64,000 bases of DNA. Origin: Archangium gephyra (GTDB taxonomy: Bacteria > Myxococcota > Myxococcia > Myxococcales > Myxococcaceae). Made by a program: the position numbers and the translations under genes. The notes under the pieces were generated by a model. The model was given only the letters and a program-made list of their open reading frames with translations. It was not told the origin of the DNA and made no database searches. Positions within the stretch are counted from its first letter, which is position 1. Every line of letters starts with the position of its first letter. The DNA lies in the NCBI RefSeq assembly GCF_001027285.1, contig NZ_CP011509.1, positions 11,680,501 through 11,744,500 of the forward strand, read 5' to 3'. Below are positions 8,583-57,727 of this stretch, one piece after another.

Positions 8583-9431
8583 ATGCTCCGCTCCCGCCTC
8601 TGCCTGCTCGCCGCCGCCGTGCTCTGGTCCACCGCCGGCGCCGCCGTGAAGCTCTCCTCCCTGTCGGCCTGGCAGATCGCCTCCGGCCGCTCGCTCGTCG
8701 CGGCCCTGGTGCTCGCGCTCGCCTTCCCCGCCGGCCGCAAGCTGCCCTCCCGGCGCGGGCTCGCGGCGGCCCTGGCCTACGCCGTCACGGTGGTGTCGTT
8801 CATCATCGCCAACAAGCTCACCACCTCCGCCAACGCCATCTTCCTGCAGGACACCGCGCCGCTCTACGTGCTGCTCCTGTCCCCGCTCTTGCTGCGCGAG
8901 CGCCCTTCTCGCGGGGAGCTGGCCGCCGTGCCCGTGTTCCTGCTCGGCCTGAGTCTCTTCTTCCTGGATCAGCTCGCGCCGGGGCAGTTCTGGGGCAATG
9001 TGATTGCCCTGGGCTCCGGTGTCGCGTTCGCGATGGCCATCCTCGGGCTGCGCGCGGTGGGCGAGGAGGGCTCGTCCGTGCTCGTGTGGGGCAACCTCAT
9101 CGCGGGCTTCAGCGTCCTGGTACCCGCGCTCGGCGGTCCCTCACCCACGACCCTGGATGTCGGGCTGATCCTGTTCCTCGGCGTGTTCCAGCTCGGGCTC
9201 GCGTACACCCTGTTTCACCGCGGCCTGCGCGAGACGCCCGCGGTGGAGGCCTCGCTGCTCATCCTGCTCGAGCCGGTGCTCAACCCCGTGTGGACCTTCC
9301 TCTTGGCCGGGGAACGGCCCGGACCGTGGGCCCTGGTGGGCGGCGCCATCATCCTCCTGGCCACCGCGTGGCGCACACTGCTGGGCTCCGGGGGCTCGGC
9401 GGAGACTCCAGCGCGAGAGCCCCAGGGCTGA
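8583..9431 (+). CDS. EamA/DMT-family transporter
   Basis: A 282-residue inner-membrane permease with about ten hydrophobic helices in two EamA repeats. The first starts at AAAVLWSTAGAAVKLSSLSAWQI and the second at GNVIALGSGVAFAMAILGLRA. The drug/metabolite transporter family moves amino acids, sugars or other small solutes, and the substrate cannot be read from sequence. Gly/Pro-rich loops and the helix-ending RP motif (GERPGPWALVGGAIILLA) are typical of the family. It starts 72 bp after the DUF1206 gene. The palindrome array begins directly after its stop. Confidence 0.88.
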   Translation: MLRSRLCLLAAAVLWSTAGAAVKLSSLSAWQIASGRSLVAALVLALAFPAGRKLPSRRGLAAALAYAVTVVSFIIANKLTTSANAIFLQDTAPLYVLLLSPLLLRERPSRGELAAVPVFLLGLSLFFLDQLAPGQFWGNVIALGSGVAFAMAILGLRAVGEEGSSVLVWGNLIAGFSVLVPALGGPSPTTLDVGLILFLGVFQLGLAYTLFHRGLRETPAVEASLLILLEPVLNPVWTFLLAGERPGPWALVGGAIILLATAWRTLLGSGGSAETPAREPQG

Positions 9432-9439
9432 GCAGACGC

Positions 9440-9650
9440 CGGGCCGGGTCCATTCCACTCGTCACCGGTGACCAGTGAAACTCGCCGGGTCCATTCCGCT
9501 TGTCACCGGTGACAAGTGAAACGCGCCGGGTCCATTCCGCTTGTCACCGGTGACAAGTGAAACGCGTCGCCCTCATTCCGCTTGTCACCGGTGACAAGTG
9601 AAACGCGCCGGGTCCATTCCACTCGTCACCGGTGACCAGTGAAACTCGCC
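9440..9650. repeat. Five phased 41-bp palindromic repeats
   Basis: The core GTCACCGGTGAC occurs at 9461-9472, 9502-9513, 9543-9554, 9584-9595 and 9625-9636, an invariant 41-bp period (four helical turns at 10.25 bp per turn). The inner three copies share the perfect 18-bp palindrome CTTGTCACCGGTGACAAG. The first and last share the variant CTCGTCACCGGTGACCAG. Conserved flanks CATTCC on the left and TGAAAC on the right extend the imperfect dyad to about 28 bp. The array starts just after the EamA stop and ends about 140 bp before the CHAT operon. No other copy of the core was noticed in the window. Confidence 0.95.
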
Positions 9651-9792
9651 GAGCTGGCAGCACCATCGTACTTTTTCGCCCCTGACGGCGGTTGAGAGGG
9701 GGGATTGGGAGTTCAGCCGGATGGGACGCAAACGGCGAAACCAGCGTGGGGGGGATGGCTATGGGGATCGAGCACAATCCAGGAGCAACTCG
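9651..9792 (+). other. Leader of the CHAT operon
   Basis: These 142 bp lie between the palindrome array and the first CHAT-operon ATG. They contain a short T-run (TACTTTTTCG), a G-rich stretch and AGGAG at 9781-9785 as the ribosome binding site. I see no convincing -10/-35 pair and no sigma-54 site. The whole stretch 9432-9792 contains no gene. Confidence 0.5.
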
Positions 9793-12700
9793 ATGAACCT
9801 TCCCTTCCCCTTTCAACTCCCCCCCATGCCGCCCGAGGCACGCGAAATGCTTCAGGCCATCCAATTCCTACGGCAGGAGGACATATCCTACACCGCCGAG
9901 CGACAGCGCACCGCCACCGGGCGCCGCTCGTCCGAGCTCATCCAGCGCGCCGTCGAGCACCATGAAGCCCAGCGCTTCACCGAGGCGCATCAATTGTTCC
10001 TCGAGGCCGCCCGGCTCCACACGGAGGATGACCCGGGTGTCGCCGCGGCCGCGGCCTGGCACGAGCTCGCCAAGTCCTACATGGACCAGACGGGGCTGCT
10101 GCCCGAGGAGCGGTACCGGCAGGCGGAACTGCTCCTGCGCCGGGCAGCGGCTTCACCCGGGCGGCGCAAATACCCCATCCGGCTCGCGCTCACCCTGACG
10201 ATGCTCGCGAGCTGCCTCCGCTATCAAGCCCTCGAGCGCCACCCGAGCGAGCACACCGAGGACCAGCTCGACGAGGCGGAGCGCCTCTCCGAGGAGGCCG
10301 TGGCCCTGATGGAGCGCCTCGGCCCTCCCGGACTCCCCAAATGCATCGACAACCTGTTCAACCTGGGCAACCTGCGCGAGCAGCGCGAGAAGTGGGATGG
10401 CGCCGTGAAGGCCTACAACAGGGCCCTGACGCTCCAGCGCCGCATGCACATCCGGAAACCCAGCCCCGACAGCGAGCGGTCCAGCACGGTGCGGCTCGCC
10501 CTGGCCCGGGTCCTGCCCCACCGCGACAGGCCCGGGGATTTCCAGCGAGCCCTCGAGCTCCTCGATGAGGTCACCACCCACGACCCGACCTACGCGGACG
10601 AGGCCTGGCTCTGGCGGGCCCAGCTGCTCGCCGAGGACCCGGCACGGCGAGAGGAGGCCCTCCAGGCATTGGATCGGGTGAAGCCCGAAAACCTGCGCGG
10701 TGATCGGCTCAAGCTGCTGGCCAGGCTGTACCAGGAGCTCGGCCGCGCCGAGCAGGCCTTGACGCTGCTTCGACAGCTCGCCGGCGAGGCCATGCAGCAC
10801 CGGAAGCTCGCGCTCACGGACCTCGATGCGGACCACGCCGCCCAGGAGGCCCAACGTGCCGCGGGCCTGGCCGCCCGCATCCTCGTGGCGCAGGGCAACC
10901 CCGTGTCCGCCTTCCTCGAGCTCGAGAACGTGAGCGGCTTGCGCTACCTCGAAGCCCTGCACACCTTCAACTACCGGCCCTCCGAGCCCGTGGCGCGTGA
11001 GTTGTGGGAGCGTCGCTGGGAGCTGTCGACCCAGTCCAGCTCCCTCGCCACGCTCGCCAGCGATCTGCGGCTCCTCCCGGTCGACCAGCAGCGGGAGGTC
11101 CTGGCGCAACTGACCACGGCCCTGGCGGAGCAGGGCACGAAGAACGAGCGGTTCCGCGCTTCCACCCTGGGAAGTGACTGGTTCCTGGGCGTCCTGAAAG
11201 AGGCCACCTCGGCCCCCTTCCCGGCCGAATACCTCCAGACCCGCTCCCACGAGCGCGCCCAACAGACGGTGCATGCGCTGAAGCTGCTCGTCCAACACGT
11301 CCCCGAGGCGGAACTCGCGGAGTTGATCGGAACCGGCATCCTCGAGGCTCCCGGGCTCGAGCGGATTCTCCAGGAGCAGCCGGGTACCGTCCTCGTCCGG
11401 CTCCACCTCCTCGACGAGCTGCTCGCCGTGGCCGTGTGGCTCGAGGATGGACGCGTCACGGGGAGCTCCTGCCAGTTCCCCCTTCCGAGCGGGTGGTGGT
11501 CCCTGGTCTCCCAGGCCCTGAAGGATCCACGGAAGGCCAACCCCCAGGACTGGAACGAGCTGCTGGCGACCCTCGACATCTCCGCGGCCCTGCCACCGGG
11601 TCCCCAGAAGCGGGGCATCCTCCTGCCGTCCCACCTGACGGCGTTCCTCCCCCTGGTGGCGCTCGGACCCGCCGGCAAGCGCCCCTTGGATCGTTTCCAA
11701 TCGGTGCTCTGGCTGCCCAGCCTCGCCCCGCTCATGCACCGGCAGAAGGCCCACCCGCCCCGGGAGGGGACACTCACCGTCCTGCCGGGAAACAACACCG
11801 CCTTCCATACGCTCGCCACCCGCCTGGCGCTTCCCCGGGAGCGGCGTCTGGAGAACGAGCAGGCCACTCCCGACGAGGTCGCGGAGCAGGCGCGCACCGC
11901 GGATGTCATCTGCTTCTACGCCCACGGCTTCCATGCCGCACCCGACGAGCCCCATCTCCTCCTGCATGGAGAGCAGCACTTCCACCGGGGCCATCTGGTG
12001 GACCAATGGGCGGGCGCCGAGCGGGTCGAGCTGTGGGCCTGCCAATCCGGAGTGAACGCGCCCCTGGATCCACGCAGCCCCCTGGTGGACGAGGCCTTCG
12101 GCTTCGACTTCGAGTTCCTCCGCGTGGGAGTGCGCAGCGCCATCGGCACCTTGTGGAAGGTGCCGGCCTTCGTGACCGCCTGCATCGTCCACCGCTTCCG
12201 GCAGGAGTCGCTCCAGGGCCGGGACGGTGCCGAGGCGCTCGCGGAGGCCCAGCGCTGGTGGGCCCACGAAGGAATCCAGTCCTTCGCCGCGCACCTGCGT
12301 GGCCGGACGCGCGAGGAGGGCTGCCAGGCCTTCATCGCCAGCCTGGGAGCCGAGTGCACCTCCCGGGACTTGGAGAACATGCTCGACAGCCTTGGCATCC
12401 CGCCCGAGCCCACGGCCCCCGTGTCCGACGCCGAGCTCGAGCAGTGGTGCCTCCGCTTCGCCAGCCCGCTGTCCTGGGCGGGCTTGCGCTTCGTGGGCAC
12501 CCCCGAGCGGCGCCCGGTGGAGCCCTGGAAGGAGGAGTACGGCCAGCCCGCCACGGAGGAAGTCAGGCGAACGGTGGACCGCCTGATGGAGAAAGCCGGG
12601 AAGGAGGAGGAGTCTCCGCTGTCTCCCCAGGAGCAGCTGGAGGATGCGTTGGAAGCGGCCATCTCCACCTGTGAGGAGACGTCCCTCCAGCCGGAGCAGG

Positions 12701-15351
12701 CGCTGGACGTGGCACGGCTCCAGGGGGTCCGCCAGCGGGCCTCCCACTCCCACAATCTGCTCTCGGCGTTGGCGTGGGTGCACGAAGCACTGGACCGCTG
12801 CTCCTCGCGGGGCGACGAGCGGGCCCGCCTCGTCACCGAGGCCGCCCACCTCTGGCTCGAGCTCGCCATGGACGAGCAGCCCCAGCTCCCCTCGGCCATC
12901 CTCCGCCCACCGCGAGCGGTACCTCTCCTGCGGGCGGAGCAGCTCCTGGGCAGCGAACCTCCCGCGTCCGCACCGGCACGCGCGGACCGGCTGGCGGCGA
13001 AGGCCCGGCTCGTGCTGCTCCAGGCGCTGGCGGACTCGACACTCCCGGAGCTCAAGCAGCATGGGTTCGAACCGTATGTCCGGCGGGCCTGGGACGTGCT
13101 GGCCCCCGGCCTGGGTGAGCTCCGGGAAGCCACCGTGGAGTCCCTGCGTGTCCTGACCATCGCCTGTGAAATCCTCCTCCTCGAGCCCCGGAGGAGCCTC
13201 GCGGGCGCGGCTTCCCAACTGCTGCAACAGGCCCGCGCCCTCATCCAGAAAGCGGGAGACGCGCCCACCCGGGATGCCCGCCTCGCTCCCTTCCTGGCGC
13301 GGCTGTGGGAAGCACGGGATGCACTCGCCAGGGCGCTCGGTGACGCAGGGCCCATGCCGGAAGGGGCAATGGGCTGGCTGCCCGCCCGGGAGCTGGCGCG
13401 CGGTGCCCTCCACCAACTCACCACCCCGGGCGCCGTGGAGGACCCCGACCGGTTCATCGGGATCGCCCTCTCCCAGATGGAAGGAGCCTTCTGGGGAGAG
13501 CCCTCCGATGACCGCATGTCCCTGCTGCGCGGCTCTGGCACCCCGGGCTTCGCTTACCGCTGGATGCTCGCGCACTACCTCCAGAAGTGCTTGCAGAACC
13601 GGCCGGGCGACCCTGGCCACTTCATCGCCTGTCTCCAGCTCGCTTGTGATTTGAGGCTCACCTTCCTCCATCGGCTCGTCCGCTGCGCCATGCCGGGCGC
13701 GGACGTTCTGCAGCGCCTCGAGCTGTGGAAGCTCCTGCGCCACCGCGAGCACCTGCTGGAAGCGCTCCGCGATAGCGCCCTGCTGGCCGCCGCTTCTCCG
13801 GGTGACGAGACCGGGCCCGCCTCCTTCCGGCTCCATCCGCTCGACCCCTTCGCCCTGGGCACGCGGGAGCTCCACACGGCCTCGCTCGATGCCACGGGAC
13901 TCACGGCCTGGACGCTCGCCAACAGCTGCCAGGCGCATCCCGAACCGGTCCCAGCCCCGCGGACCACGGCGTTCCATGCCGCGCGCCTCGCCAGGTCCCT
14001 GGGTTACGGGGCAACGAGTCTGTGGTCGGATCTTCTCAAGAGACTCCCCCAGGAGCGCGATGAGCGGGGCCAGCGCCATCCGCTGCTCGAGCTGCACTCC
14101 AAGCTGGAGTCCACCGAGGCGGAGCTCTCACGCATCCCCCAGGGACATGGAGTGATCGCCCTGACGCTCCAACCGGATGGCACGCCGCTCGCCGCCGCGC
14201 ACTGGCATGGCCCGCGAGGACTGGAGGGGAAGGTCGTTCGCGGCAACAAGCGGGGGCTCGGCATGCGGCTGAGCCACGTGCTGCACCCTCGCCCGGAGGA
14301 TGACACCCCGCTGCGAGGCCGCTCGTCCTCCCGCTACCTGGCGTGGGATCAGCTCGAAGAAGACCTCGCGGCCTTCCTCGACGAGTTGCTGGGCTCCGCC
14401 CTCGACGAGCCCCTGCATTGGTCCGTCATCGCCCCGGGCGCCATGCGCTCGCTTCCGTGGCTGGGGCTGCGCGCGGGCAGCACGCGGCTCTGCCAGCGGG
14501 TGGCCAGCCTCCGCCTGTTGCCCTCCTTCGGCTTCGACGCGCCACTCCCAGACCTTCCCAGTGCCACGAACCGCGCCTGCCTCCTGGCACCCGAGCACAC
14601 GCACGGGGACACCTCCTTCGGTGAGGCCGTCATCGAGACGCTGCGCCGCGCCTCACCTCCCGAAGTGGTGCTCGATCCCACCCGGCTGCGCGGCAACGAG
14701 GTCGTGGAGTTGGAGCACCTCCAGGCGCTCTCCCACCAGGTGGGGTCCGTGCGGTTCTATGGCGTGGGCCGTGCCGAGTCCCTCACCCCCACCGTCGCGA
14801 TGCTTCGGCTCGTCAACGGACGGGCCCTCGCGCCACGCAATACCCTCCAGGTGCTCCTGCCGCGATGCAATGAGGTCGAGCTCTGGGCCGCCACCACGGG
14901 CGGGACGGATGCGCTGCGAGCGAGGTACGACGACGCGGATGGCATTCCGGGCCTCGCGGGGAGCTTCCTGGCGTGTGGCGCGCGCGCCGTGCTCGACATG
15001 GCGTGGCCCGTCCACGACCTGGTCAAGGCGCTCGTCTGCGAGCAGTACGAGCGCGCACGCCTCGGCGGGTACGCGGGCGCAGAGGCCCTCGGCCAGGCGG
15101 TGCAATGCACCCGGAGCCTGCTGACCCTCTGGTCCCTGGACGCGCGCCGGACGGGCTCACTCCGGGAGGCGCTCGCCCTGCTGGACGACCGCCGCCGGGC
15201 CCTGCTCGGTTCCCGCCTCCCCCCAGAAGGTGTCGTTCCCCTGGCGGACAGACACGAGGCCCCTTGCATCCAGGGGCTGAAGGCCGATGAACTCGTGACG
15301 GACCTGCTGCACCCTTCCCACCTCGCGGCCTTCCGCTGGTGGGGAAGCTGA
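9793..15351 (+). CDS. TPR protein with one active-looking and one degenerate CHAT (caspase-like) domain
   Basis: A soluble 1852-residue protein. Residues about 30-400 are helical TPR-like repeats (for example NLFNLGNLREQREKWDGAVKAYNRAL). A first CHAT domain occupies about 560-920, with His711 in FYAHGF and Cys750 in ELWACQSG, the expected catalytic pair. A second helical region follows (about 960-1470). The second CHAT domain (about 1500-1820) keeps the fold motifs (SVRFYGVG, EVELWAATTG, AVLDMAWPVHDLVKAL) but has Val1658 and Ala1700 where His and Cys belong. CHAT domains are caspase-clan proteases or scaffolds, and TPR-CHAT proteins occur in defence and cell-death systems such as Craspase. 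AGGAG lies 7 nt before the ATG at 9793, which favours that start over one 24 codons upstream. First gene of a three-gene operon. Confidence 0.88.
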   Translation: MNLPFPFQLPPMPPEAREMLQAIQFLRQEDISYTAERQRTATGRRSSELIQRAVEHHEAQRFTEAHQLFLEAARLHTEDDPGVAAAAAWHELAKSYMDQTGLLPEERYRQAELLLRRAAASPGRRKYPIRLALTLTMLASCLRYQALERHPSEHTEDQLDEAERLSEEAVALMERLGPPGLPKCIDNLFNLGNLREQREKWDGAVKAYNRALTLQRRMHIRKPSPDSERSSTVRLALARVLPHRDRPGDFQRALELLDEVTTHDPTYADEAWLWRAQLLAEDPARREEALQALDRVKPENLRGDRLKLLARLYQELGRAEQALTLLRQLAGEAMQHRKLALTDLDADHAAQEAQRAAGLAARILVAQGNPVSAFLELENVSGLRYLEALHTFNYRPSEPVARELWERRWELSTQSSSLATLASDLRLLPVDQQREVLAQLTTALAEQGTKNERFRASTLGSDWFLGVLKEATSAPFPAEYLQTRSHERAQQTVHALKLLVQHVPEAELAELIGTGILEAPGLERILQEQPGTVLVRLHLLDELLAVAVWLEDGRVTGSSCQFPLPSGWWSLVSQALKDPRKANPQDWNELLATLDISAALPPGPQKRGILLPSHLTAFLPLVALGPAGKRPLDRFQSVLWLPSLAPLMHRQKAHPPREGTLTVLPGNNTAFHTLATRLALPRERRLENEQATPDEVAEQARTADVICFYAHGFHAAPDEPHLLLHGEQHFHRGHLVDQWAGAERVELWACQSGVNAPLDPRSPLVDEAFGFDFEFLRVGVRSAIGTLWKVPAFVTACIVHRFRQESLQGRDGAEALAEAQRWWAHEGIQSFAAHLRGRTREEGCQAFIASLGAECTSRDLENMLDSLGIPPEPTAPVSDAELEQWCLRFASPLSWAGLRFVGTPERRPVEPWKEEYGQPATEEVRRTVDRLMEKAGKEEESPLSPQEQLEDALEAAISTCEETSLQPEQALDVARLQGVRQRASHSHNLLSALAWVHEALDRCSSRGDERARLVTEAAHLWLELAMDEQPQLPSAILRPPRAVPLLRAEQLLGSEPPASAPARADRLAAKARLVLLQALADSTLPELKQHGFEPYVRRAWDVLAPGLGELREATVESLRVLTIACEILLLEPRRSLAGAASQLLQQARALIQKAGDAPTRDARLAPFLARLWEARDALARALGDAGPMPEGAMGWLPARELARGALHQLTTPGAVEDPDRFIGIALSQMEGAFWGEPSDDRMSLLRGSGTPGFAYRWMLAHYLQKCLQNRPGDPGHFIACLQLACDLRLTFLHRLVRCAMPGADVLQRLELWKLLRHREHLLEALRDSALLAAASPGDETGPASFRLHPLDPFALGTRELHTASLDATGLTAWTLANSCQAHPEPVPAPRTTAFHAARLARSLGYGATSLWSDLLKRLPQERDERGQRHPLLELHSKLESTEAELSRIPQGHGVIALTLQPDGTPLAAAHWHGPRGLEGKVVRGNKRGLGMRLSHVLHPRPEDDTPLRGRSSSRYLAWDQLEEDLAAFLDELLGSALDEPLHWSVIAPGAMRSLPWLGLRAGSTRLCQRVASLRLLPSFGFDAPLPDLPSATNRACLLAPEHTHGDTSFGEAVIETLRRASPPEVVLDPTRLRGNEVVELEHLQALSHQVGSVRFYGVGRAESLTPTVAMLRLVNGRALAPRNTLQVLLPRCNEVELWAATTGGTDALRARYDDADGIPGLAGSFLACGARAVLDMAWPVHDLVKALVCEQYERARLGGYAGAEALGQAVQCTRSLLTLWSLDARRTGSLREALALLDDRRRALLGSRLPPEGVVPLADRHEAPCIQGLKADELVTDLLHPSHLAAFRWWGS

Positions 15352-17005: not shown

Positions 17006-18685
17006 TCAGCTCGCGACGCGTGTCTCACTGCCCGGCCCGGGCGGACCCAGGCGCCGGGCGAGCTCCGCTTCCAACCGCTTCGGCTCGATGGGCCGCTCGC
17101 GGTGCCCCACGTACCCGTCCGGCCGGACCAGGTAGAAGCACTCCGCCCCCGCCCCAAAGCGGCGATGCAGTGCGCCCTCCCCGTCGGCCAGCACGAAGGG
17201 CCCCGGTGTGCCCTCGCCCGCCACCACCACGCGCGCCCTCAACAGCGGCCCGTACGCCTCCTCCAGCCGCCTCGCGAGCGCCACCAGCCCGCCCCGCGCC
17301 TTCGCCTCGGGCCTCGAGCCGGTGAACAGCAGCAACGTGTGCTGGGGGCCGCGCAGCACCTCGTGCAGCCGCTCCACACCCTCGCCCTTCACTGGCAGCT
17401 CCGGCACGCGCTCCCCCGGCGCGGGGCCCTCCTCCAGCCGCACGCCCCCCACCTCCTCGCCCCAGATGCGCTCGGTGGACAGTGGGCTGCGCCGGTAGTG
17501 GATGGCGAGCTGCGTGACGAACCGCGCCATGCGCCGCTGGGTGAAGGAGCTGCCGAGCAATCCCTTGGCCATCCGGGGCGCCACGTACGTCCGCAGGAGC
17601 CGGGAGAAGGTCCCTCCTCGTGTCATGAGGCCGAAGGCCCGGTCCGTGCCCTCCAGCAGCAGTTGCCCCACCGGGTGCCGCTCCAGCTCGTACGTGTCGA
17701 GCAGCGAGTCCGGCGCGCGGCCCTTCGTGACGAGCGCCAGCTTCCAGGCGAGGTTGTAGGCATCCTGGATGCCCGTGTTCATCCCCTGCCCTCCCGCCGG
17801 GCTGTGGATGTGCGCGGCATCCCCCGCGAGGAACACGTGGCCCTGGCGGTAGCGCGGCACGCCCCGGCGGTGCAGCCGGTAGCGCGTCAGCCAGCGCGGC
17901 TCGCTCACGCGCACCGGCACGTTCGACATGCGCTCCAGGATGCGCTGCATCTCCTCCAGCGAGAGGGGCGTCGTCTCGTCGCCCTCCGGGAGCATGTCCC
18001 TCGGCATGACGGCGAACAGCCGGTAGCGCTGCTCCCCCGGCATGGGGAAGGCGCCCACCACGCCGTGCATGGACGGCATGAGGACCAGCTCGCCCTGCCC
18101 GAGCGGCCACTCCACGCGCACGTCCGCCAGCACGCACGCGTCGTCATACGTCTCGCCCTCGAAGGGGATGCCCGCCCCCTTGCGCACCCGGCTGCGCGCG
18201 CCGTCACACCCCAGCAGCCACCGCGCCTTCACCCGCTCCACCCCGCCCTCCGCCCGCTTCAGCGTGGCCTCCACGCCGGCCGCGTCCTGCCGGAAGTCCT
18301 CCAGCGCCAGGCCCCGCTCCACCTTCACCCCCAACGTGCCCAGGTATTCGGTGAGCAGCGCCTCGGTGGCGTCCTGCGGCAGCATGAAGATGAAGGGGTA
18401 GCGCGTCTCCAGCCACGAGAAGGCCTGCATGGGCACCCGCGTGTGCACGCCTCCCGCGCCCACCACGTTCAAGGCCTCGACCTTGCGTCCTCGCGCGAGC
18501 GCCTGCTCGACGATGCCGAAGTCGTCGAAGACCTCGAGCGTGCGTGCCTGCACCGCCAACGCGCGCGACAGCACCGAGGGCGCCTCGAGCTGCTCCACCA
18601 GCCGGCACCGCAGGCCATGCCGCGCCAGCTCCGAGGCCATCGTCAGGCCCGTGGGCCCGGCTCCCACCACGAGTGCGTCCCACAT
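17006..18685 (-). CDS. FAD-dependent aromatic-ring monooxygenase
   Basis: A 559-residue flavoprotein of the PheA/TfdB (pentachlorophenol/phenol hydroxylase) group. It has the Rossmann motif VVGAGPTGLTMASEL at the N-terminus, the DG motif LLGCDGARSRVRK near 160, the second FAD motif GHVFLAGDAAHIHSPAGGQGMNTG near 285 and a C-terminal thioredoxin-like domain (about 400-559). These enzymes use NAD(P)H and oxygen to hydroxylate aromatic substrates, often in natural-product tailoring or phenol breakdown. The ATG at 18685, preceded by GGGGAGAGA, is chosen over one 14 codons earlier. No biosynthetic cluster surrounds it, so the substrate is open. Confidence 0.88.
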   Translation of the reverse strand: MWDALVVGAGPTGLTMASELARHGLRCRLVEQLEAPSVLSRALAVQARTLEVFDDFGIVEQALARGRKVEALNVVGAGGVHTRVPMQAFSWLETRYPFIFMLPQDATEALLTEYLGTLGVKVERGLALEDFRQDAAGVEATLKRAEGGVERVKARWLLGCDGARSRVRKGAGIPFEGETYDDACVLADVRVEWPLGQGELVLMPSMHGVVGAFPMPGEQRYRLFAVMPRDMLPEGDETTPLSLEEMQRILERMSNVPVRVSEPRWLTRYRLHRRGVPRYRQGHVFLAGDAAHIHSPAGGQGMNTGIQDAYNLAWKLALVTKGRAPDSLLDTYELERHPVGQLLLEGTDRAFGLMTRGGTFSRLLRTYVAPRMAKGLLGSSFTQRRMARFVTQLAIHYRRSPLSTERIWGEEVGGVRLEEGPAPGERVPELPVKGEGVERLHEVLRGPQHTLLLFTGSRPEAKARGGLVALARRLEEAYGPLLRARVVVAGEGTPGPFVLADGEGALHRRFGAGAECFYLVRPDGYVGHRERPIEPKRLEAELARRLGPPGPGSETRVAS

Positions 18686-57672: not shown

Positions 57673-57727
57673 CCATTTCCCCTCGGCCATTTCCCCTCGG
57701 CCATTTCCCCTCGGCCATTTCCCCTCT
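57673..57727. repeat. 14-bp tandem repeat
   Basis: The unit CATTTCCCCTCGGC is repeated almost perfectly about 3.8 times directly after the second pilT gene, next to the composite palindromic element. It looks like a slippage-prone minisatellite. No coding role is seen. Confidence 0.85.

Follow-up and report, generated by a model that had tools for sequence, protein, structure and literature searches.

A tandem array of 41-bp palindromic units in Archangium gephyra and its predicted binding protein, an undescribed myxobacterial family with weak structural resemblance to ParB and SopB

What do five evenly spaced palindromes between a transporter gene and a CHAT gene serve in Archangium gephyra? 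They lie in a 64,000-nt stretch of its chromosome (the window), downstream of a gene for an EamA-family transporter (positions 8583 to 9431, plus strand), whose 3' end is 21 bp before the first palindrome, and upstream of a TPR/CHAT gene (9721 to 15351, plus strand; start at 9721 or, by the gene caller, 9847). A first-pass annotation had taken them for the control region of a double-CHAT operon or a sensor site. Based on TRF and motif searches, the tandem array spans 9443 to 9651 on the plus strand and consists of five 41-bp units, each a 28-nt imperfect palindrome plus a 13-bp spacer. TRF reports a period of 41, 5.1 copies, 89% matches, and no indels, with a score of 327, the highest among the 28 TRF rows of the window. 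The palindromes occupy 9453 to 9480, 9494 to 9521, 9535 to 9562, 9576 to 9603, and 9617 to 9644 (all plus strand). Their cores, GTCACCGGTGAC, begin at 9461, 9502, 9543, 9584, and 9625, each step being 41 bp, as the annotation had stated. Its two variants are also present: the outer two units (palindromes 1 and 5) read TTCCACTCGTCACCGGTGACCAGTGAAA and the inner three TTCCGCTTGTCACCGGTGACAAGTGAAA. The arms mismatch at positions 3/26 (C/A) and, in the outer units, 8/21 (C/C). The annotation further placed all dyads on the same face of the helix; the period is exact, but the four full turns are only approximate because 41 bp corresponds to 3.9 turns at 10.5 bp per turn. The window gave no match to a known RNA family in Rfam at gathering scores, and the array itself was without match in the plasmid collection.

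The array is not a chance arrangement, because 18 of the 24 occurrences of the exact 12-mer GTCACCGGTGAC in the 12.49-Mb genome (G000; 12,489,432 bp in one contig) sit in five arrays, in 2 to 5 copies at 41-bp steps. These arrays are found at 1,632,786 (four units), 3,174,708 (three), 5,580,540 (four, plus variant units), and 6,350,615 (two), and in the window (five); a sixth, at 2,332,872, consists of two variant units. A model of the unit matches this genome 43 times with both strands counted, which corresponds to about half that number of sites, mostly within the six arrays. Of the five other genomes of the genus that were searched (G001 to G005), all but G003 have the unit, as does G008 from another genus.

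Intervals and conservation were determined from 27 stretches of five genomes of the genus, holding 92 units, after three weak isolated hits were dropped; two of the stretches are contig ends of one locus. Neighboring units are 41 bp apart in 64 of 65 cases and 40 bp apart in the remaining one, and the exact period within Archangium looks to be under selection. The palindrome is conserved at 1.63 bits per column, versus 0.62 for the drifting spacer. Cores vary by compensated changes (GTCACCGGTGAC, CTCACCGGTGAG, GTCGCCGACGAC, and CTACGCACGTAG); across 78 distinct units the 11-pair stem is 95.2% paired, with 53 both-side changes versus 16.8 in shuffles. The genes that flank the other arrays include those for LexA, glutathione peroxidase, OmpA, a desaturase, and PhzF/SbcD, among others. 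We group the distant loci of the genus into nine, and at four of them the array lies between convergent genes: EamA/FAD (G001 and G004), LexA/TPR, OmpA/Big_2, and desaturase/GH43. Many arrays closely follow a stop codon, and unit counts differ between orthologous arrays. The first-pass annotation had counted arrays of the unit at many unrelated loci with variable period against its reading; such arrays are indeed found at many unrelated loci, and their period is constant.

Two non-orthologous array loci share a common neighbor, the gene for an undescribed protein of about 224 amino acids that we call P224 (P0003 is the copy with which close homologs were compared). In A. gephyra this gene is located at G000:C1:3174987, and three units with the window array's palindrome stand in tandem about 170 to 280 bp upstream of it. 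Searches of the family gave no significant match in Pfam, NCBIfam, PHROG, PADLOC, or PDB sequences, and among the papers listed from the open-licence PMC literature none described the family or these arrays. Homologs are present in 17 of the 96 family genomes, with up to 20 matches in one genome. Among these 96, the six genomes that carry the 41-bp unit (E ≤ 0.01) are exactly the six whose best P224 match has at least 66% identity to P0003; the next-best match has 50%. G003, of the same genus, has neither the unit nor a close P224. A plasmid or phage origin of P224 was rejected, as tblastn against the plasmid and phage collections was empty at E 0.01. We consider it probable that the window array is one of about six arrays of binding sites in this genome for P224, which is encoded elsewhere on the chromosome. 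Of the earlier proposal of sites for a dimeric regulator rather than mere duplication, the sites are supported by the contrast between palindrome and spacer, by the constant interval, and by a candidate binder gene with the same array; the binder is probably a dimer.

A relaxed search of 15 selected genomes with the model of the unit found, besides G008, only weak matches, in six genomes (E 0.013 to 0.95); one of these matches, at G086:C8:116063, precedes a P224 paralog by about 400 bp. In a loose 16-mer search (two mismatches, 27 genomes), a reversed-pattern control gave about as many hits or more in almost every genome, so that the result carries no information.

Within a genome, distant arrays tend to carry the palindrome that also accompanies its P224. 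G000, G001, and G004 of the Archangium genus have GTCACCGGTGAC both beside P224 and at distant loci, as G002 and G005 have CTCACCGGTGAG; the commonest distant core is a P224-side core in all five genomes of the genus with arrays. In G008, CTACCCGGGTAG occurs at P224 and on another contig, the matching core being tied with an unmatched core, 2 to 2. For some distant units no counterpart was found among the P224-side sites of their own genome, namely, those with CTCGCCGACGAG, CTCATCGATGAG, and CTCGCCGGCGAG cores and, in G000, GTCGCCGACGAC.

The same holds in a second genus, g23. In G106, all 21 hits are to CCTCTGCACGTGCAGAGG: nine stand at the P224 gene, and two further contigs each have an array of six. 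G101 has the CTTCCGC type at the P224 gene (4 sites) and 0.58 Mb away (5), as well as one stray CTTCTGC site. In G087 (Pyxidicoccus caerfyrddinensis), the CTTCTGC type occupies the P224 gene (7 sites) and six of eight sites of an array on another contig, the other two being of the CTTCCGC type. A distant array is syntenic in these three genomes, between a gene of about 210 amino acids (82 to 92% identical) and an ECF-sigma gene (96%), and its spacers are unrelated to those at the P224 gene, from which it also differs in spacing. G096 and G112, which have P224, carry one or two matching sites at the P224 gene, one stray site each, and no distant array; G090 and G100, without P224, gave no hit to the g23 palindromes. 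The putative recognition helix reads VSQAVLSLN with CTTCTGC (G087, G096, and G112), VSQTVLSMN with CTTCCGC (G101), and ISSAMLSLN with CCTCTGC (G106). That helix changes track palindrome changes in g23 is suggestive only, with a counter-case in Archangium, where two paralogs share the helix LSQSTLSRY and have different cores (GTCACC and GTCGYC).

Palindromes upstream of P224 genes extend beyond the 41-bp unit. Tandem arrays were found by TRF upstream of 25 of 43 P224 genes, against 5 of 354 for the other genes of these loci (hypergeometric 2e-23), although these and the following counts are not independent because orthologs are counted separately. Arrays with a perfect stem of at least 7 bp precede 17 of 43 P224 genes and 3 of 354 controls; two of these control arrays belong to the family described here. 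Palindromes recurring at least three times were found for 23 of 70 P224 genes (one being a low-complexity artefact) versus 4 of 354, with one region shorter than 300 bp left out, and perfect stems of at least 10 bp for 32 of 69 versus 11 of 354, with 6 of the 11 control cases being one recurring site sequence of the family. The five-copy "palindrome" of locus L141 was rejected as low complexity; by eye this region has a single near-palindrome at about -205. In 18 of 69 P224 upstream regions there is no perfect stem of at least 8 bp, and the most distant homologs (G122, G124, and G055; 25 to 38% identity to the nearest query) have single palindromes at most.

P224 paralogs have palindromes of their own, e.g., CTCCTGACCGGTCAGGAG, TCCCAGATATCTGGGA, and ACTTCTGCACGTGCAGAAGT, and homologs of other genera also have upstream tandem arrays, whose periods and palindromes differ from those of the 41-bp unit. 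Periods in these other arrays scatter between about 24 and 65 bp, and spacing is irregular (31 to 46 bp) in the distant arrays of G087 and G101. We therefore reject helical phasing as a general rule beyond the Archangium arrays; cooperativity through strict phasing is at most a feature of this clade. Upstream of the second P224 gene of A. gephyra, at about -205, lies just one site, with the core CTTCTACG; this core recurs as one odd unit of the LexA-locus array. At the LexA locus of three species, the spacers around one unit are, by eye, mutually complementary (caggccc/gggcctg), lengthening the palindrome (L029 9692 to 9745, L056 9512 to 9565, and L065 9339 to 9392).

We modeled P224 with AlphaFold2. 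The whole-protein model (mean pLDDT 85.8) has a mainly helical N-terminal part and a C-terminal alpha-beta-beta-alpha domain, and the N-terminal domain modeled alone reaches a pLDDT of 94.3. Foldseek with the P224 models returned nothing below E 0.1. In VIA, a second look at Foldseek's list whose ranks hold among the matches listed, the N-terminal domain aligned with P1 ParB-DNA (2ntz; Z 4.3, rmsd 5.6, 90 residues aligned) and with SopB-DNA (3mkz; Z 4.2, rmsd 3.4, 87 aligned, and 3mky; Z 4.0, rmsd 4.7, 94 aligned), followed by unrelated rows at 3.1 and 2.3. The modeled domain thus weakly resembles the DNA-binding domains of P1 ParB and F SopB, a Z near 4 meaning little on its own. The resemblance is worth stating because the three top rows are all centromere-binding helix-turn-helix (HTH) domains on DNA and because sopC consists of tandem 43-bp repeats.

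Sequence homology between P224 and SopB was considered and rejected: hhalign of A3 against one SopB sequence gave a probability of 0.1, with no homology detectable. For 46 P224 homologs, no ParB-domain family appeared at E up to 1 among the matches listed (best 25 of 36 families). The ParB/SopB-HTH-like part begins near residue 30 of the 224-aa model, leaving no room for an N-terminal ParB/Srx CTPase domain. Among 521 predicted genes in 48 loci (43 with P224), the deviant Walker A motif of ParA-type proteins was found once, in a sigma-54 activator; a ParA partner may act from elsewhere. The N-terminal MFNLLKFK-type and C-terminal GGFLRRMTGG-type tails are suggestive of Noc-like membrane targeting, but we do not claim it because their hydrophobic moments do not exceed those of shuffles.

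The best reading of the arrays is that they are sopC-like, for a ParB/SopB-like protein without a CTPase domain or a ParA neighbor. In F-plasmid type Ia partition, sopC (parS_F) is a tandem series of twelve repeats of 43 bp that contain inverted repeats of 16 bp (PMC6238139). Like sopC, the arrays described here are direct repeats, of 41 bp, each with an inverted repeat, and SopB has the HTH domain that the P224 model weakly resembles. Unlike sopC, they are chromosomal, with several different protein-array pairs per genome, and P224 is without a detected ParA-type neighbor, a CTPase domain, or detectable similarity to the one SopB sequence compared. Noc of Bacillus is likewise a ParB-related protein with sites (NBS) scattered around the chromosome (PMC4331003; PMC8429893); however, Noc is a CTPase with a membrane-targeting helix and NBS are 16-bp sites, whereas P224 has no CTPase domain, its tested tails are not significantly amphipathic, and its predicted sites here are arrays. 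VirB of Shigella is a ParB-type protein re-used away from partition, with its virS sites upstream of promoters; unlike P224, which has no such domain and was not found in the plasmid and phage collections, it binds and needs CTP (PMC10770331).

Turning to the CHAT operon, we compared the orthologous loci of the genus. Orthologs of the EamA gene also precede an array in Archangium lansinium (G001) and A. violaceum (G004), with gaps of 20 and 21 bp, and there the array lies between the orthologous EamA and FAD genes with no CHAT operon (the G004 locus is split over two contigs). In A. gephyra, the operon sits between the array and the FAD-binding monooxygenase gene (17006 to 18685, minus strand), whose orthologs in G001 and G004 adjoin the array, convergent with EamA. 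By eye, the sequence directly after the array is still recognizably common to the orthologous loci, and for this reason we place the start of the CHAT operon about 50 bp past the array. The EamA/FAD pair is also found in G002, G003, and G005, where both array and operon are missing, so that the operon is absent from this locus in all five other genomes. The claim that the array controls the CHAT operon is therefore not supported by the very comparison the annotation had suggested, persistence of 41-bp arrays upstream of CHAT operons in relatives: G001 and G004 have kept the array and lack the operon, and we reject such control as the array's conserved role. In keeping with "double-CHAT," the protein has one clear CHAT domain (residues 685 to 926) and, near the C terminus, a second match that is sub-threshold. 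The best reading is that the CHAT operon is a later or lineage-specific neighbor of an array inherited with the EamA/FAD intergene, making the TPR/CHAT gene context rather than a conserved part of the system. The operon may have been recruited to the array in A. gephyra alone. That the array is its operator, whether through P224 or another regulator, is quite unlikely. The last palindrome does end 76 to 202 bp before the CHAT start, a spacing like that of arrays to P224 genes, and CHAT is caspase-like; in the three g23 genomes, a distant array precedes an operon, by about 200 to 240 bp in G101 and G087 and by more in G106, and the third gene of this operon is weakly C14-caspase-like (a match below the Pfam cut-off, run on G101 only). 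Besides the orthologous loci, the other arrays of the unit, which flank unrelated genes, several of them convergent, speak against it.

The g23 operon that follows the syntenic array encodes an ECF sigma factor, a protein of about 250 amino acids, the weakly C14-caspase-like protein, and a DUF7151 protein (L225 968 to 6186, L226 715 to 5933, and L293 6712 to 11769; Pfam on L225 only, the others by orthology). A caspase-like CHAT gene after the window array and a weakly caspase-like gene after the g23 array may be a coincidence or a theme.

Three further explanations have to be weighed. P224 could be an ordinary autoregulated transcription factor with a small regulon, its arrays being multi-site operators with no architectural role. 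This is compatible with the binding-site reading and a real, if lesser, possibility, as arrays do lie upstream of P224 genes and, in g23, of the ECF-sigma operon and of a histidine-kinase/sigma-54-regulator pair. At four of the nine distant loci in the Archangium genus, however, the arrays lie between convergent genes, where no promoter is expected, so an architectural or anchoring role fits the distant arrays better than a promoter switch. Alternatively, the distant arrays could be copies of the P224-side array, or homogenized by gene conversion, with no shared binding protein selecting for the match. Many distant Archangium arrays are clade-specific, the one at L030 arose with a duplicated neighbor gene, and units within arrays are often identical, but this explanation is unlikely: in G101, G087, and G106 spacers and periods differ between P224-side and distant arrays while the palindromes are the same, and the distant locus is syntenic in three species, yet its palindromes are species-specific.

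Very unlikely is a third explanation, that the units are REP/BIME-like hairpins, acting in RNA (at 3' mRNA ends) or DNA and neutrally spread, with the stem covariation reflecting RNA structure. The paired stem with its excess of double changes, the arrays just after stop codons, and the varying unit counts would suit it; however, any palindromic dimer site yields the same covariation, copies are few, and both the linkage of arrays to P224 genes and the per-genome match of distant and P224-side palindromes speak against it. REP/BIME are, like the unit, short intergenic palindromes, often downstream of coding regions (PMC3733652); the 41-bp unit differs in being low-copy, in tandem in one direction, and tied to the gene for a DNA-binding protein rather than a RAYT transposase. 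REP copy number is usually over 100 per genome (PMC2817692). Around 12 of the 16 Y1_Tnp matches, which are weak in their own right, the best unit match within 3-kb loci had an E of 0.78, leaving no convincing unit near these genes. We rejected REP/RAYT identity based on the low copy number and the lack of a unit-flanked Y1_Tnp among these 12 of 16 loci.

Our preferred reading remains that the arrays are binding sites for P224. The arrays, their conservation, their linkage to P224 genes, the match of P224-side and distant palindromes within genomes, and the fold model are computed; the mechanism that we infer is as follows. P224 dimers would bind each palindrome through the ParB/SopB-type HTH, with monomers pairing through the C-terminal alpha-beta-beta-alpha domain. 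With their regular spacing, the units would most likely let adjacent dimers fill the array and join in a single local nucleoprotein patch, comparable to that of SopB on sopC. Beside the gene for P224 itself, such a patch would probably serve autoregulation, and at distant loci it would more likely mark, tether, or condense DNA than switch one promoter. An architectural role of this kind is plausible, at somewhat less than even chance. The window array would be a distant site inherited with the EamA/FAD intergene.

More tentatively, we propose that myxobacteria have a multigene family of reduced ParB/SopB-like proteins. Each would have a centromere-like site or array of its own beside its gene, and some, at least, would have further ones at a small number of distant loci; these orthogonal, co-evolving pairs would anchor or condense chosen places in the chromosome without ParA or CTP. 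The undescribed P224 family gains a concrete, testable ligand, and the protein-palindrome pairs offer a natural series for reading out a recognition code. If true, centromere-like arrays would extend from plasmids to multiple loci of very large bacterial chromosomes, without the ParABS ATPase partner and the CTPase domain.

Several minor observations concern P224 neighbors and products. At L028, L053, L061, L066, L070, L179, L181, L186, L192, L206, and L211, P224 adjoins a gene for a Ser/Thr protein kinase or for P0001, a degenerate kinase-like membrane protein, mostly in divergent or convergent orientation; such kinases are common in these genomes, so we claim no enrichment. L030 (8754 to 9684) holds a second copy of a 267-aa kinase-like gene with the array and a flanking GGACTCCT/AGGAGTCC inverted repeat, without P224; this array is carried along in a segmental duplication of the kinase-like gene. 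In the g23 P224 proteins (L130, L131, L133, L134, L135, L146, and L147), a long tail rich in Pro and Ala terminates with a conserved GG(F/L)(L/F)RRMTGG-like peptide. In the window, a perfect 14-bp tandem repeat of 3.9 copies (CCATTTCCCCTCGG), unrelated to the array, lies at 57673 to 57726.
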